Source: a marine bacterium B5-7 (GTDB taxonomy: Bacteria > Pseudomonadota > Gammaproteobacteria > Arenicellales > CAJQKF01). From it: a stretch of DNA of 64,000 nt. Position numbers and translations under genes: made by a program. The notes beneath the pieces are model-generated. The model made no database searches. It saw only the letters and a list, made by a program, of their open reading frames with translations, and was not told where the DNA came from. Each line of letters opens with the position of its first letter. The stretch's first letter is position 1. The stretch lies in contig BQJD01000008.1 in assembly GCA_021604525.1 (NCBI GenBank), positions 1 to 64,000 on the forward strand, given 5' to 3'. Shown here piece by piece: positions 37,779-56,728 of this stretch.

Positions 37779-39062
37779 ATGAAAGATAAAAAATTTGTGG
37801 GACTCATAGGGATTATTGCAACCGCCTCAAGCGTGGTTGCGCTACCGGTTAGTGGGGCCGGATTTCAGATCAGCGAACAGACGGTTGCCGGTATGGGTCA
37901 GGCATTTGCCGGTGCCGGTATCGCACGTGACGATGCGTCCAATGTGTTCTATAACCCGGCAGGCATGCTGGCAAATCCCAACCGCCAGTTCCAGCTTGGC
38001 GCGACCCTGATTTCTGCCGATGCGAAGTTCAACAATCGTGGTTCTACACAACGGCTGGCCGGGGTGGCCGTGCCGAGTTCCGGTCCAAACAGCAACGGCG
38101 GTGACGATTCAGTAGTACCGAATTTTTACTACACCTCAAGCGGCGATACCTTCAAATGGGGACTGGGAGTGTCGGCGCCGTATGGCTTGTCGACAGACTA
38201 TGATAATGGCTGGGTAGGCCGTTATCACGCATTGTTTTCGGAACTGAAAACAATCAACATCAACCCGGCCGTTGCAGTCAAGGTTAGTGAAAATGTGAGT
38301 ATCGGCGCAGGTGTCAGTATTCTGAAAGCCGACGCCAAAATCAGTCAATCTGTTTTTACCGGACCCGGTCGTCCCGACGGCAAGGCAACATTGGCCGGCG
38401 ATGATACCGAGGAGGCATTCAATCTCGGCATCATGGTCACGCCCACAACGTCTACTCGTATGGGACTGGGTTATCGTTCAAGCACCAGGAATCGTATAGA
38501 GGCCAGGGTCCATTTCACCGGGGTTCCAGGAGTTCCGGCATCTTTGCCGGCAGAGTCGACAATTACCTTGCCAGAGTCGGTGTTTGCATCCTTGTCTCAT
38601 GTTTTCAGGGGAAAAACCGAGGTGTCCGGTAGCCTTCGCTGGACTCGCTGGAGTGAGCTTCCGGAACTTCGTATCAGCACGGCAGGCCTGCCTGATTCGG
38701 TTTCCGACTATCAGTGGGAAGATGTCGTCATGTGGAGTTTAGGTGTTAATCACCAGCTAAACGATACCTGGATGTTACGCGCAGGATACGCCTTTGACGA
38801 ATCTCCAGTGCCTTCCGCTGCCAATCGTTCTCCACGTGTTCCAGACTCCGATCGCGACTGGTTTACACTCGGCGTGTCGGCAAAGATCAGCAAAACCATG
38901 CGTCTCGACTTCTCCTATGCACGGGTTAACGGCGACAAATCGGACATCAACAACACCGTCAATCTTGTTGCGAGTGCGCCGGGCGCATTCACTGATACCT
39001 TGCGAGGGGATTACAGCTCGAGCGTCAACTTGTTTGGTATCCAGTTGTACGGCGAGTTCTAA
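37779..39062 (+). CDS. fadL: FadL/OmpP1-type outer-membrane transporter
   Basis: A 427-aa outer-membrane beta-barrel for long-chain fatty acids and other hydrophobic compounds. A signal peptide (ending at VALPVSGA) is followed by the mature N-terminus GFQISEQTVAGMGQAFAGAG and NVFYNPAGM, the plug-domain hallmark of the family. Barrel strands follow to a typical aromatic C-terminus (FGIQLYGEF). A strong AAGGGGGGG ribosome site precedes the ATG. Could supply substrates to the acyl-CoA ligase at 7.4 kb, though they are not linked. Confidence 0.92.
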   Translation: MKDKKFVGLIGIIATASSVVALPVSGAGFQISEQTVAGMGQAFAGAGIARDDASNVFYNPAGMLANPNRQFQLGATLISADAKFNNRGSTQRLAGVAVPSSGPNSNGGDDSVVPNFYYTSSGDTFKWGLGVSAPYGLSTDYDNGWVGRYHALFSELKTININPAVAVKVSENVSIGAGVSILKADAKISQSVFTGPGRPDGKATLAGDDTEEAFNLGIMVTPTTSTRMGLGYRSSTRNRIEARVHFTGVPGVPASLPAESTITLPESVFASLSHVFRGKTEVSGSLRWTRWSELPELRISTAGLPDSVSDYQWEDVVMWSLGVNHQLNDTWMLRAGYAFDESPVPSAANRSPRVPDSDRDWFTLGVSAKISKTMRLDFSYARVNGDKSDINNTVNLVASAPGAFTDTLRGDYSSSVNLFGIQLYGEF

Positions 39063-48933: not shown

Positions 48934-51615
48934 ATGGATCAGCTCATTCTCGTCGACGGCTCATCGTATCTATTCAGGGCATTTCACGCCATGCCCTACC
49001 TCAACAATTCCGAAGGCGAACCGACCGGCGCGGTATACGGCGTCGTCAACATGCTGAAAAAACTTGAAGCCGATTACGCGCCGACTCATATTGCGGTGGT
49101 ATTCGATGCCAAGGGCGGCACCTTTCGTAACGAGATGTACGCCGAATACAAGGCCAACCGCCCGCCAATGCCGGACGAACTCCGCTCGCAAATCGACCAT
49201 GTTCACGCCTCGGTCAAGGCCATGGGCATGCCGCTACTGTGCATACCCGGTGTTGAGGCCGACGATGTGATCGGTACCCTGGCGAACAGCGCCCGCGACG
49301 GTGGGGCAAAGGTGATCATAGTCAGCGGCGACAAGGATCTTACCCAGCTTGTCGACGACTCCATTGTCATGGTCGACACCATGAACGATGTGCGCTACGA
49401 CCACGCCGGCGTTGTGAAAAAATTTGGCGTTCCGCCGGAACGGATCATCGACTTCCTGGCACTGGTGGGCGACACCTCGGACAACATTCCCGGCATTCCC
49501 AAGGTCGGGCCGAAAACAGCCGTCAAGTGGCTGGAACAATACGGCTCGCTTGATGGGATCATTGAGCATGCCGGCGATATTAAGGGCAAGGTGGGGGAAA
49601 ACCTGCGCGATAATCTCGGACAGTTGGCGCTGTCGCGGGCTCTGGTCACCATCAAGTGTGACGTCGATGTCGATGCAAGCCCTGAATCATTGGTGCTCGG
49701 CGAACAGGATGACGATGCACTGCGCGATTTATTCGCCCGACTGGAATTTAAAAGCTGGTTAACCCAGTTGGGTGGTGCCTTACCAGATGAGGAATCGGAC
49801 GAGGACGATGCGATTTACCAGACTATTCTTGACACGGACGCCCTTAAGGAATGGATTGAAACATTGCACGATGCCGGCGAATTTTCCATAGACACCGAGA
49901 CCACGTCGATCGACGCCATGCGGGCGAAACTGGTGGGTATCTCGTTCAGTGCGACGCCAGGCCATGCCGCCTATTTGCCGGTAGCACATGATTATGACGA
50001 CGCGCCGGCGCAGCTATCCCTCGATACAGTCAAGAAATTACTTGGCCCCCTGCTTGCGGATCCTGACATTGAGAAAATTGGTCAGAACCTGAAGTACGAT
50101 CTAAGCGTGCTTGCCAACCATGGCATAGTGCTTGACGGTATCGCATTTGATTCCATGCTTGAATCCTACGTTCTCGACAGCACCGGATCGCGCCACGATA
50201 TGGATTCCCTGGCGATCAAATACCTCGGCTACAACACGGTCAAGTTCGAAGAGGTCGCCGGCAGCGGCAAATCCCAGGTGACCTTCGATAAAATCAATAT
50301 CGACGAAGCCACCCGGTATGCTGCCGAGGATGCCGATATCACCTTGCGTCTGCATCAGCATCTGATGCCGCGGCTGGTGGCCGAAAAACGTCTCAACGAG
50401 CTGTATCGCAATATCGAGATGCCGCTGGTGCCGGTGTTATCTCGAGTCGAGCGTAACGGCGTGCGGGTCGATGTCGATATGTTGCGTCAGCACAGCGCCG
50501 AACTGGCTGAACGTATCGATGAGGTTGAGCGTCGTGCCCATGATGTCGCAGGCGAGTCTTTCAGCATCGCCTCGCCGAAACAGATACAGCATCAGTTGTT
50601 CGACAAGCTTGGCCTGCCGGTGATCAGCAAGACACCGAAAGGACAGCCGTCGACTGCCGAGAGTGTGTTGCAGGAGTTGGCAGTCGACTATGAACTACCC
50701 GCGCTCATCCTCGAACATCGTGGCCTCGCCAAACTGCGCTCAACCTACACCGACAAATTGCCGGATCTGGTGAATCCCGATACCGGCCGGATTCACACTT
50801 CCTATCATCAGGCAGTGGCCGCCACCGGACGATTGTCCTCGTCGGATCCCAATCTGCAAAATATACCGGTTCGAACCCGTGAGGGTCGACGGATTCGTGA
50901 AGCGTTTATTGCCGACGACGGCCATCTGCTGGTATCCATCGATTATTCACAAATCGAGCTTCGCATCATGGCGCATTTGTCTGGAGATGAAGGGTTGTTG
51001 AAAGCCTTTGCCGAAGGCCGCGACATTCATCGGGCAACTGCTGCGGAAGTATTTGGTGCGACCCTGGACTCGGTGACCGATGATCAAAGGCGTGCCGCCA
51101 AGGCGATTAATTTCGGCTTGATATACGGTATGTCGGCGTTCGGCCTCGGTCGTCAGCTCGGTATCGATCGCACCAGCGCCCAGGAATACGTCGATCTTTA
51201 TTTCGAGCGTTATCCCGGCGTGAAGAATTTCATGGACCGCACCCGTGAACTGGCCCGTGAGCAACACTATGTCGAGACCGTGTTCGGCCGGCGGCTGAAT
51301 CTTCCCGAAATCAACTCGCGTAATTTTCAACGCCGTCAGTATGCCGAACGCACCGCAATCAATGCGCCCATGCAGGGCACCGCAGCCGACCTGATCAAGA
51401 TGGCCATGATCAATGTTGACCGCTGGATACGGGAGAATTCGTCGAGTGCAAGAATCATCATGCAGGTGCATGATGAATTGGTACTGGAGGTGCTTGAAGA
51501 CGATGCCGAGGCCATTGTTAAAACGGTCGGGCCGTTGATGACCGGGGTCGCCAGTTTGAAGGTGCCGCTTGAGGTGGATGCCGGGATCGGACGTAACTGG
51601 GCCGAGGCCCATTAG
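48934..51615 (+). CDS. polA: DNA polymerase I
   Basis: Repair and Okazaki-fragment polymerase, 893 aa. The 5'-3' exonuclease domain occupies about 1-290 (LVDGSSYLFRAFHAM, AVVFDAKGGTFR, GVEADDVIGTLA). The 3'-5' exonuclease domain follows, and its metal site looks intact (FSIDTETTSID near 310). The polymerase has motif A DYSQIELRIMAHLS, motif B KAINFGLIYGMSAFG, and motif C MQVHDELVLEV. GAAGG precedes the ATG. In E. coli and Pseudomonas polA is followed closely by a small RNA and engB; here an aldolase and an iron permease gene lie between. Confidence 0.98.
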   Translation: MDQLILVDGSSYLFRAFHAMPYLNNSEGEPTGAVYGVVNMLKKLEADYAPTHIAVVFDAKGGTFRNEMYAEYKANRPPMPDELRSQIDHVHASVKAMGMPLLCIPGVEADDVIGTLANSARDGGAKVIIVSGDKDLTQLVDDSIVMVDTMNDVRYDHAGVVKKFGVPPERIIDFLALVGDTSDNIPGIPKVGPKTAVKWLEQYGSLDGIIEHAGDIKGKVGENLRDNLGQLALSRALVTIKCDVDVDASPESLVLGEQDDDALRDLFARLEFKSWLTQLGGALPDEESDEDDAIYQTILDTDALKEWIETLHDAGEFSIDTETTSIDAMRAKLVGISFSATPGHAAYLPVAHDYDDAPAQLSLDTVKKLLGPLLADPDIEKIGQNLKYDLSVLANHGIVLDGIAFDSMLESYVLDSTGSRHDMDSLAIKYLGYNTVKFEEVAGSGKSQVTFDKINIDEATRYAAEDADITLRLHQHLMPRLVAEKRLNELYRNIEMPLVPVLSRVERNGVRVDVDMLRQHSAELAERIDEVERRAHDVAGESFSIASPKQIQHQLFDKLGLPVISKTPKGQPSTAESVLQELAVDYELPALILEHRGLAKLRSTYTDKLPDLVNPDTGRIHTSYHQAVAATGRLSSSDPNLQNIPVRTREGRRIREAFIADDGHLLVSIDYSQIELRIMAHLSGDEGLLKAFAEGRDIHRATAAEVFGATLDSVTDDQRRAAKAINFGLIYGMSAFGLGRQLGIDRTSAQEYVDLYFERYPGVKNFMDRTRELAREQHYVETVFGRRLNLPEINSRNFQRRQYAERTAINAPMQGTAADLIKMAMINVDRWIRENSSSARIIMQVHDELVLEVLEDDAEAIVKTVGPLMTGVASLKVPLEVDAGIGRNWAEAH

Positions 51616-53026: not shown

Positions 53027-54928
53027 ATGTACCGTTATCTGTTCTTACTACTTCTGCTGCTTGTCAACGGGTTGGCGCGTGCCGGGGATTTGCAGCAACT
53101 CCTCCAATTAATCGACTACGTTGGTGTCGACTATTCCGAGGCTGTGGCCGATGGCCGGGTGATCAACCAGGATGAATACCAGGAGATGCTCGATTTTTCC
53201 GCCGGTATACAACAATTAGTGGCAGGATTGCCTGAGGATGATACCCGGGTGCTTTTAAGAGAGCAGGCCAGCATGCTGTCCAAACGGATTGCTGGTAAGG
53301 CGCTGGCGGAAGAGATCAGCGTCCTGACTGCCCGCATGCGGTTGGCTGTTATCAATGGTTACCAGGTGACAGCGATACCAGATCAACCGCCAGACCTGGC
53401 GCGTGGCGCCCTGTTATATAACAGGCAGTGTGTCAGTTGTCATGGTGTCACAGGTGACGGAGCGGGGCCAGCGGCGGATGGCATGGATCCACCTCCGGTC
53501 AGTTTCCAGGATCACATGCGCTTTTCGCAGCGCACGCTGTACGGCCTGTACAACACCATTACCCAGGGAGTGACTGACACGGCTATGCCGTCCTACCATG
53601 AGTTGTCGGACAAAGACCGCTGGGCGCTGGCCTTCCATGTAGGCCGACTCGCTGCTGATCAAACGGTACGCGCGGCGGATGCCGAAAAGCTGTTAGGCGA
53701 TTCGGCACTCATGCCGTTGCTGGATGTGCATAAGTTTACCGTTACCACGCCAGCCGAGGTCGTGCATGATTTTGGCGAAGGGGGTGGTCAGTTAATGGCT
53801 TGGCTACGTAATCATCCGGAAGACCTGTTCAGCAGGCAATCACCCCTGATGTTTTCACGGCATCGGCTTGACGATGTACTGGCCGCCTATCGGGACGCTG
53901 ATAAAGAGTTGGCCTATCAACTGGCTGTCGAGGCCTATCTGGAAGGCTTTGAACTGGTTGAGCAGGGGTTGAATGCCGTCGATCCGGATTTGCGCGTTAA
54001 AATCGAACAGGCCATGACCGGTCTGCGTACGCTAATACGCCAGGGTGCACCGTTGCTCGAACTGGAAGCGGAAGTAGCCGAGATCAAGCGTCAGCTGGAT
54101 CAGGCAATGGAACGCCTCGATGAGCGCAGCCTCTCGAGTGGAGCTGCTTTTACCGCAGCATTTCTAATCCTCCTGCGAGAGGGGCTGGAAGCCTTGCTGG
54201 TAGTCGTCGCACTGGCTGCCTTTCTGGTCAAAACCGAACACCGGGATAGTCTGCGTTATCTGCACTATGGCTGGATCGGTGCACTTGTTGCCGGGTTTTT
54301 CACTTGGTGGGCCTCGATGTCGCTTATCGAGATTAGCGGTGCGAGCCGGGAAGTTACCGAGGGTCTGGCGGCGTTACTGGCAACAGCAGTTCTGTTCTAT
54401 GTCGGTTTCTGGTTGCATAACAAGAGCAGTGTCGCACAGTGGAAACAGTTCATCGAAACCAACGTAAAGCAGGCGTTGAGTACCGGTACGATTTGGGGTA
54501 TTGCAGGTTTGTCATTTATTGCGGTTTACCGTGAAGTGTTTGAAACCATCCTGTTTTACCAGACGCTCTGGGTACAGGTTGATCAGGTGGGCAAATACAT
54601 GGCGTTGGCAGGACTCGGAGCTGGCGCCGTTGCCCTGGCGGTGCTGGCCTTGCTGGTGATTCGCTACAGTGCGCGTCTGCCGTTGCGTCAATTCTTCAGT
54701 GTGACTGGTCTTCTGATGTTTGTATTGGCGCTGATTTTTGCCGGCAAGGGTGTCGCTGCCCTGCAGGAAGCTGGTTATATTCCCGTGATCCCGCTCAGCA
54801 TCCCGCGTGTTGAACTGTTGGGCATCTATCCCAATCTGCCTGGATTGTTGCTGCAGCTCGGACTGTTGCTGCTGGCGCTATACCTGTGGTTTTGGCTGCC
54901 CGGCAAGCGCCGGGCTACGGAGACCTGA
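53027..54928 (+). CDS. Cytochrome c-FTR1 fusion iron permease
   Basis: A 633-aa iron transporter. After a signal peptide (LFLLLLLLVNGLARA), residues about 120-210 form a cytochrome c domain with heme motif CVSCHG and axial Met in TAMPSYHEL. A helical linker (about 290-365) precedes an FTR1 permease of about seven spans with the two iron motifs REGLEA (LLREGLEALL) and REVFE (YREVFETILF). Fused heme permeases of this type oxidise or pass electrons while importing ferrous iron. A Fur-like box lies just upstream. No EfeO/EfeB or other partner is adjacent. Confidence 0.92.
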   Translation: MYRYLFLLLLLLVNGLARAGDLQQLLQLIDYVGVDYSEAVADGRVINQDEYQEMLDFSAGIQQLVAGLPEDDTRVLLREQASMLSKRIAGKALAEEISVLTARMRLAVINGYQVTAIPDQPPDLARGALLYNRQCVSCHGVTGDGAGPAADGMDPPPVSFQDHMRFSQRTLYGLYNTITQGVTDTAMPSYHELSDKDRWALAFHVGRLAADQTVRAADAEKLLGDSALMPLLDVHKFTVTTPAEVVHDFGEGGGQLMAWLRNHPEDLFSRQSPLMFSRHRLDDVLAAYRDADKELAYQLAVEAYLEGFELVEQGLNAVDPDLRVKIEQAMTGLRTLIRQGAPLLELEAEVAEIKRQLDQAMERLDERSLSSGAAFTAAFLILLREGLEALLVVVALAAFLVKTEHRDSLRYLHYGWIGALVAGFFTWWASMSLIEISGASREVTEGLAALLATAVLFYVGFWLHNKSSVAQWKQFIETNVKQALSTGTIWGIAGLSFIAVYREVFETILFYQTLWVQVDQVGKYMALAGLGAGAVALAVLALLVIRYSARLPLRQFFSVTGLLMFVLALIFAGKGVAALQEAGYIPVIPLSIPRVELLGIYPNLPGLLLQLGLLLLALYLWFWLPGKRRATET

Positions 54929-55136: not shown

Positions 55137-55164
55137 GGAACATCCATATCGAGGTAATGTCTTA
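55137..55164 (+). promoter_or_regulatory. Sigma-E/AlgU-like promoter for the small RNA
   Basis: GGAACAT (55137-55143), 16 bp of spacer, then TCTTA (55160-55164) resembles the extracytoplasmic-function consensus GGAACTT-N15/16-TCNNA. Pseudomonas ErsA uses an AlgU promoter of this kind. Two mismatches keep confidence moderate; a sigma-70 reading (TATAAC at 55163) is also possible. Confidence 0.45.
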
Positions 55165-55170
55165 TAACTT

Positions 55171-55290
55171 ACCGGAAGCCAAGGATTGCATCCGTCCCGC
55201 TCCTCCTCCCTGAGCGGGTGATTCCGAACCTTCGGAGTCTATTATTTAACCCCGGCATACGTCCTGCCTGATACGTGCCGGGGTTTTTTT
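55171..55290 (+). ncRNA. Spot 42/ErsA-like trans-acting small RNA
   Basis: About 120 nt with three stem-loops. CCCGCTC (55196-55202) and GAGCGGG (55212-55218) form a perfect stem exposing the loop CTCCTCCCT, which is complementary to Shine-Dalgarno sequences. A second hairpin is ATTCCGAA/TTCGGAGT (55221-55238). The last is a strong intrinsic terminator, CCCCGGCA/TGCCGGGG with seven T (55250-55290). It lies directly before engB, where E. coli has Spot 42 and Pseudomonas has ErsA between polA and engB. The 5' end is inferred from the promoter spacing. Position and design, not sequence identity, support the call. Confidence 0.65.
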
Positions 55291-55323
55291 ATGTGTGCTT
55301 GATAATTCTCACCGTGCAAGCGC

Positions 55324-55938
55324 CTATTGCTCCAGCCAATGACCGATGGCATCAATGGCCTCGTCTACACCGGTGCGATCAACTGATGAGAAAAGCTGTA
55401 CGCTCACGCCTGGTTCATTGTTAAGCAACTTCTTTGTTTCCAACAGTGCAGCAGCCGCACGATTACGACTCAACTTGTCGGATTTGGTCAGTAAAATATG
55501 CACTGGCAGGTCGGCTCTGGCAGTGATTTCAAGCATCTGCAGATCGAGAGGGGTCAATGGTCGGCGTGCGTCCATGGGTAAAATCAGTGCGCGTAAAGTC
55601 TCTCTGTTAGTCAGATAATCTGTTATCGTCTGTTCCCAATGGCGTCTGACCTCGAGTGGTACCTTGGCATAGCCGTATCCCGGCAGGTCCACAATTCGGC
55701 GTCCGCTATCGAGTTCAAAAAATACGATCTGTCTGGTTCGCCCTGGTGTTTTACTCGTTTTTGCGAGCCCGCGTCGTCGGACAATGGTGTTGATGGCGCT
55801 GGATTTGCCAACATTCGATCGCCCCGCGAATGCCACCTCGGAGAGTGTCTCCTCGGGCCATTGTGATGGCAGATGGGCGCTGATTATGAAGCGGGCGCTG
55901 TTAAGATCAATCGCAGTGACTTTTCTGGATTCATTCAT
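55324..55938 (-). CDS. engB: Ribosome-biogenesis GTPase EngB/YihA
   Basis: A 204-aa GTPase needed for 50S assembly and cell division. G1 is AGRSNVGKSSAIN, the G2 region GRTRQIVFFEL, G3 DLPGYGYAKVP, and G4 LLTKSDK. Length is normal. It converges on the sRNA terminator and is divergent from the cytochrome c4 gene, the same neighbourhood as in Pseudomonas. Confidence 0.96.
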   Translation of the reverse strand: MNESRKVTAIDLNSARFIISAHLPSQWPEETLSEVAFAGRSNVGKSSAINTIVRRRGLAKTSKTPGRTRQIVFFELDSGRRIVDLPGYGYAKVPLEVRRHWEQTITDYLTNRETLRALILPMDARRPLTPLDLQMLEITARADLPVHILLTKSDKLSRNRAAAALLETKKLLNNEPGVSVQLFSSVDRTGVDEAIDAIGHWLEQ

Positions 55939-56116
55939 CGTGTTTTGATGCTCGGAATTGACGATTACCGGGAAATCGGATATACGAAGGCGGCTAACTT
56001 TTATACGACGTCGCGCGATGGTAATGTCCCCTGTACAGGCGGGCCTTTGTTAAGGCTCGCTTTATTACAATCACTGACGTTGAATGCTTTTTACATCATT
56101 TTTCAAGGAGTGTCCC

Positions 56117-56728
56117 ATGAACTTCATTCGCCTTGGCGTCGCAATGAGCCTATGTGGCAGCCTGTTCGCAACCGCTGGTGTAATGGCCCAGGGTGATGCT
56201 GAGGCCGGCGCCGGTAAAATTCAGGTATGTGCAAGCTGTCACGGACAGAACGGTGCCAGCAACAATCCTGAATTTCCTTCACTGGCGGGACAGGTGCCGG
56301 GTTATCTTGCCAAACAGCTTAATGCCTACAAAAGCGGTGCACGTGAAAATTCCATTATGACGGGTATGGCGTCAGCCCTGTCAGATGAAGACGTTAATGA
56401 CATCGACGCCTACTTTTCGTCGCTTAAGCCGCCGGTTCGAAGCCTTGATGAATCGCAACTTGAAGATGCCAGGAAAGGTGAAAAAATTTATCGAGGCGGT
56501 TATCGGCCATTTGCAATTCCTGCCTGTATGGCCTGCCACGGCCCGGGTGGACATGGTATCCCACCGACTTACCCGCGCGTTTCCGGGCAACAATCAGCCT
56601 ATCTTGAGGCTCAGCTTACAGCTTTCAAATCTGGCCAGCGCAAGCATGACATCATGAATCCGATCGCCTTCAAGCTGTCGTTGTCACAGATCAAGGAACT
56701 GGCGCTGTATATGTCAGCCGTTAATTAA
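56117..56728 (+). CDS. Diheme cytochrome c4
   Basis: A 203-aa periplasmic electron carrier. The signal peptide ends at AGVMAQG. Two c-type heme sites appear as CASCHG (about residue 38) and CMACHG (about 140), with axial methionines in IMTGMAS and HDIMNPIAF. Cytochrome c4 feeds electrons to terminal oxidases. I start at the ATG at 56117 with AAGGAG upstream, not 11 codons earlier. Adjacent to engB, as in Pseudomonas. Confidence 0.94.
   Translation: MNFIRLGVAMSLCGSLFATAGVMAQGDAEAGAGKIQVCASCHGQNGASNNPEFPSLAGQVPGYLAKQLNAYKSGARENSIMTGMASALSDEDVNDIDAYFSSLKPPVRSLDESQLEDARKGEKIYRGGYRPFAIPACMACHGPGGHGIPPTYPRVSGQQSAYLEAQLTAFKSGQRKHDIMNPIAFKLSLSQIKELALYMSAVN

Follow-up and report, generated by a model that had tools for sequence, protein, structure and literature searches.

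The window analysed here is the whole 64,000-nt stretch of contig BQJD01000008.1 from the marine bacterium B5-7 (the host). Read 5' to 3' on the forward strand, positions 55137 to 55290 hold a putative promoter, a small RNA (sRNA) and a terminator, in that order (cf. Table 1). The adjacent engB gene is encoded on the minus strand and converges on this element, so that the sRNA sits 3' of engB and about 35 nt from its end. An earlier note on this DNA had placed the RNA before engB, which was correct as to the neighbourhood but not as to the orientation. Its assignment to the polA-engB neighbourhood was borne out, with the end of polA lying about 3.5 kb upstream of the sRNA, and both genes said to have displaced polA were indeed found in between, namely an aldolase gene (Pfam DeoC/LacD; called fbaB in the earlier note) and an FTR1 iron permease gene. 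The FTR1-type permease carries a cytochrome c domain in its N-terminal part, and a gene for a two-domain cytochrome c adjoins engB on its other flank.

Table 1. Features of the sRNA locus and its neighbours (window coordinates).
Feature	Position	Strand	Basis or remark
-35 element GGAACAT, ECF/sigma-E type	55137-55143	+	Sequence; slot conserved in family
-10 element TCTTA	55160-55164	+	16 nt past the -35 element
sRNA, about 120 nt	55170-55290	+	5' end placed from promoter, 3' end from U-tract
Hairpin H1	55173-55194	+	MFE fold; sequence variable among relatives
Hairpin H2 (CU hairpin)	55196-55218	+	Nine-base loop CTCCTCCCT at 55203-55211
Hairpin H3	55220-55239	+	MFE fold; sequence variable
Rho-independent terminator	55248-55290	+	Fold; hairpin 55248-55285, U-tract 55284-55290
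engB (YihA/YsxC GTPase)	55324-55938	-	Pfam MMR_HSR1; convergent neighbour, locus marker
polA	48934-51615	+	Pfam DNA_pol_A; other locus marker
FTR1-type iron permease	53027-54928		Between polA and engB
Two-domain cytochrome c	56084-56728		Adjoins engB

The minimum free energy (MFE) fold of positions 55170-55292 had a value of -51.6 kcal/mol (z = -5.86), and none of 200 dinucleotide shuffles was as stable. Three stem-loops had been claimed for this RNA, but the MFE fold gives four hairpins, the last of which is the strong terminator that had been predicted. H1 and H2 are separated by one nucleotide, and a 5' hairpin like H1 recurs in relatives. The CU-rich, anti-Shine-Dalgarno loop described before is present in H2 and is the one long CU loop of the window sRNA, the terminator loop being partly C-rich.

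A search of the window with the Rfam covariance models (cmscan) returned a single sRNA family over threshold, RF02837 (anti-hemB), which scored 59.6 bits (gathering 49.5; E = 2.1e-11) over positions 1-81 of the 81 of the model and had been overlooked in the earlier note. The features of this family, a CU-rich hairpin followed by a hairpin and a terminator, were present in the window RNA according to both the cmscan alignment and the fold, and the host genome contained one copy over the cut-off. Spot 42 (RF00021), to which the RNA had been likened, gave no cmscan match in the window, either at gathering or locally at E 10, with a model that did detect the E. coli RNA, and this part of the comparison was dropped. 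The alphaproteobacterial family alpha-r14 (RF02344), which shares the CUCCUCCUCCC loop motif, was likewise rejected (34 bits against a gathering score of 58.8).

Among 60 relatives, leading matches to RF02837 were examined in 14 genomes, and in every one the best match lay directly 3' of engB. Fourteen engB-linked RNAs, that of the window among them (92.7 bits as a training sequence), served to train a covariance model, R1, with the promoter and engB left out. Matches to R1 (E <= 0.001) were obtained in 147 of 369 genomes spread over the class. Where engB coordinates were listed for the genome, 54 of the 69 listed matches adjoined engB on the expected side, and all 54 were convergent with it. 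For 120 loci, fetched from among the best-scoring R1 matches, we counted the genes within 3 kb of the RNA: engB was found in 86, polA in 78, both in 63, at least one of them in 101 and neither in 19. In three loci the RNA stays with polA after engB has moved away (L068, L088, L094), and in three others with neither gene nearby the RNA structure and the promoter are kept (L040, L051, L055). R1 undercounts, since a promoter of this kind and an RNA with a C-rich hairpin are also present at engB in several genomes below the threshold (L242, L244, L260, L267). The RNA and promoter occur together at engB in at least four named loci, those of Nitrosomonas sp. Nm132, Azoarcus taiwanensis, Gallionella sp. 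and Acidithiobacillus sp., and the nearest named relative among the matches listed is an unclassified gammaproteobacterial metagenome assembly, isolate 8_bin.56 (68% EngB identity). The idea that related lineages hold no sRNA of this sort is wrong at the family level, the R1 family being widespread; for the host lineage itself, an uncultured gammaproteobacterial one, we found no described sRNA in the open-access literature. Tandem copies of the RNA, two to four in number, were seen in several genomes, and in two of the loci (L123, L128) the RNA pair lies near the tmRNA. In one genome (G392), a family RNA downstream of polA and another downstream of engB are separated by about 100 kb.

The architecture of the RNA is conserved along with its position. 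Folding gave exactly four hairpins in 123 of 135 family RNAs and at least one C/U loop in 134; two CU loops were present in 70 and three in 32, and the terminator loops were CU-rich in many. Lack of conservation of the CU loop across related genomes had been named beforehand as a refutation of the idea, and the idea survived this test. The CTCCCT loop core and the CCGC/GCGG stem of H2 were invariant in 14 engB-linked relatives. When 109 RNAs were aligned to R1, 98% of the cells paired, and two-sided changes were found at 13 of 15 pairs (184 cells), a result equalled by none of 500 shuffles and destroyed by sliding the pairing partners; compensatory changes affected six of the seven pairs of the H2 stem and seven of the eight of the terminator. 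Because the structure had guided that alignment, the unfitted alignment A1 of 14 RNAs is the fairer test, and it gave two-sided changes at 5 of 15 pairs and a covariation score of 0.241 versus 0.094 for shuffled alignments (0/500). H1 and H3, both variable in sequence, were not resolved in the consensus fold, and the terminator hairpin sequence is identical in L009 and L010. The RF02837 E-value and the retention of the promoter, hairpin and position in many genomes indicate that the window element is more than a chance arrangement, and the putative sRNA gene is a convincing and probably functional one. A four-hairpin RNA family next to engB and/or polA is, by sequence comparison, a feature of many Gammaproteobacteria (in the GTDB sense, which includes the betaproteobacteria).

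The promoter claimed for the RNA, GGAACAT-N16-TCTTA, was found exactly at 55137-55164. A strict sigma-E pattern showed no enrichment in the host genome (6 matches, that at 55137 included, versus 12 for a control pattern) and is therefore not informative alone. A G/GGAAC-N-TC element stands at the equivalent place in 13 of 15 sequences, the window included; the -35 box is weaker (GCGAACC) in the two relatives closest to the host. In the wider family, GAAC-N17-19-TC was found in the expected slot of 91 of 119 loci versus 333 of 10,596 control slots (3.1%) in the same loci. The strict motif was absent from the other 28, and some loci without it carry GAAACTTT variants. The spacing was exactly N16 in 80 of the 91 promoters, whose consensus, at positions not fixed by the search, was TGAACTTT-N16-TCTNA, which is the RpoE/AlgU (sigma-E) consensus. 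The host genome encodes an RpoE over the cut-off (L307), followed by rseA- and rseB-like ORFs, names that rest on ORF reading and gene order; no clear GAACTT-N16-TC promoter was seen in the region directly upstream of this rpoE. Both the sequence and its conservation across family loci bear out the description of the promoter as sigma-E-like, that is, of the ECF type.

These findings led us to favour, as the probable reading, a trans-acting sRNA that is driven by RpoE, covers Shine-Dalgarno regions with its CU loop and belongs to a widespread polA-engB family. The RNA structure, its conservation, the synteny, the conservation of the promoter and the presence of rpoE-rseA-rseB were shown computationally, and we infer transcription, dependence on RpoE in vivo, pairing through the loop and the kind of target. 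Envelope stress would release RpoE from RseA; RpoE would then transcribe the sRNA, of about 120 nt, from GGAACAT-N16-TCTTA up to the intrinsic terminator, and the RNA would accumulate. The anti-Shine-Dalgarno sequence in its C/U loop, CUCCUCCCU, would pair with G-rich or purine-rich ribosome-binding sites and keep a set of mRNAs, among them probably those of outer-membrane proteins, from being translated. The start regions of 379 genes, from 463 kb or roughly a tenth of the host genome, were compared with the H2 loop, and complementarity over 6 or more bases was found in 15 of them versus 7-16 for permuted purine strings; as this is no better than the permuted strings, no target set is named. 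As an example only, a reasonable first target candidate may be the FadL-type porin gene at 37779 of the window (Pfam Toluene_X), whose start is preceded by a run of G.

Three other explanations were weighed against an RpoE-driven, base-pairing sRNA. Transcription of the sRNA could instead start at a housekeeping promoter or depend on an ECF sigma factor other than RpoE, given that the host has two more ECF-like sigma factors (their RpoE-model scores are below the cut-off), that TCTTATAAC is readable as a sigma-70 -10 element and that the motif is absent in Burkholderiaceae members; a consensus scan, however, found no sigma-70 promoter at the site, and the GAACTTT-N16-TCTNA consensus of 91 loci is that of RpoE/AlgU. 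This alternative is unlikely. It is very improbable that the RNA acts by sequestering a protein, with its repeated C/U-rich loops binding a CsrA-like or other RNA-binding protein instead of mRNA. The many family RNAs with two or three CU loops and with CU-rich terminator loops would suit such a role, but CsrA requires GGA loops, which the CU loops are not, and in the host RNA there is a single long loop of the CU type. Furthermore, sX13, a studied relative, works by base-pairing (PMC3771888). Least probable of the three is an antisense or terminator element that protects the 3' end of engB and has an incidental CU loop: the convergent arrangement, with about 35 nt between the RNA and engB, and a terminator that could also stop read-through from upstream are compatible with it, but termination needs neither a compensated CU hairpin nor a promoter of fixed spacing, tandem copies exist, and structure and promoter are kept at polA without engB or with neither gene.

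Spot 42 resembles the window RNA in its location in the polA-engB interval, but it is under cAMP-CRP control and is not known to have an ECF promoter of this type. The comparison with ErsA of Pseudomonas, which is sigma-22 dependent (PMC8395346), held in part. As judged from sequence features, the window RNA appears ErsA-like in its polA-engB location, its convergence with engB and its ECF (sigma-22/RpoE) promoter, but it lacks the U-rich unstructured domain II that ErsA has between SL1 and SL2. Seven Pseudomonadaceae loci, located through CrcZ, have an RNA 3' of engB, called ErsA here by locus and description, whose promoter reads GAACTTT/GAACCTT-N16/17-TC. This RNA has a stretch that fits the U-rich domain II, and its terminator loop is rich in C and U, but none of these loci has the CU hairpin H2. 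The likeness was therefore taken as one of the same locus and the same promoter type, and not as membership of ErsA. The first Pseudomonadaceae genome found (G220) has no ErsA at engB, and other genera of its family do have one. As for sX13 of Xanthomonas, it lies downstream of polA, consists of stable stems with C-rich loops and represses by pairing these loops with G-rich motifs at start sites, without Hfq (PMC3771888). Set beside this description, the window RNA has one C-rich loop and a partly C-rich terminator loop, with polA 3.5 kb away; an ECF promoter for sX13 was not reported in the text searched of PMC3771888. In Dyella, a genus related to Xanthomonas, no R1 match was found at engB.

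The RNA of the window shares with RF02837 the CU loop, the three modelled hairpins and the terminator, with a score over gathering. What it does not share is the adjacency to hemB, from which the family was named and which is not part of the model; its neighbour is engB. The order engB, RNA on the opposite strand, hemB, together with the ECF promoter, was found in Nitrosomonas, Gallionella, Azoarcus and a Burkholderiales genome, and this location of the RNA between engB and hemB in several betaproteobacteria accounts for the name anti-hemB. The betaproteobacterial loci with the RNA in this engB-hemB interval are L166, L172, L175 and L176. The copies labelled here as Burkholderiaceae on the basis of strong RF02837 match scores lie 200 nt from hemB and are divergent from it, and these loci had no engB match in the stretch searched and no GAAC..TC promoter. 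The simplest interpretation would be that anti-hemB represents the same gene at a locus from which engB has departed. In Burkholderia cenocepacia, anti-hemB is the expressed 105-nt sRNA ncS04, which did not respond significantly to the conditions that the study lists (PMC5688073); at least one relative of the window RNA is thus transcribed.

The family described here is widespread and largely unrecognised, and it joins several sRNAs so far handled separately. New are its breadth, the ECF promoter, the location at polA-engB and the link with hemB: in the open-access literature we found no description of the family as a whole, nor of a shared ECF promoter or a shared CU hairpin as a family trait. 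In 2013, the authors of the sX13 study asked whether the polA locus of other bacteria encodes sRNAs (PMC3771888), Spot 42, alpha-r7 and sX13 being those known earlier; for a large part of the class the answer is yes. More tentatively, and with somewhat more doubt than confidence, an ancient sigma-E-controlled anti-Shine-Dalgarno sRNA at polA-engB might be a core regulator of envelope stress in the Gammaproteobacteria, taken broadly, with ErsA, anti-hemB/ncS04 and perhaps sX13 as its diverged descendants and Spot 42 as its replacement in enterics and vibrios. For the orphan Rfam family anti-hemB, RpoE is proposed as the regulator and anti-Shine-Dalgarno pairing as the mode of action, and culturable relatives (Nitrosomonas, Azoarcus, Acidithiobacillus) make the family open to testing.

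Two further arrangements were observed 3' of engB. The intergenic region of L244 contains several C/U-loop hairpins; two extra ones, resembling CACCTCCCTGTG and GCCCCTCCCTGGGC, lie in the part that separates the sRNA from engB. Two loci of family f10 without the sRNA (L268, L276) have a common conserved element containing AGGCGAAATACCGTGTGTGAGGTATTCCAAGGGGATGTCGTTTGGGGGGAC, which is flanked by arms of the GCCTAGG/CCTAGGC type, the outer flanks being otherwise unlike.
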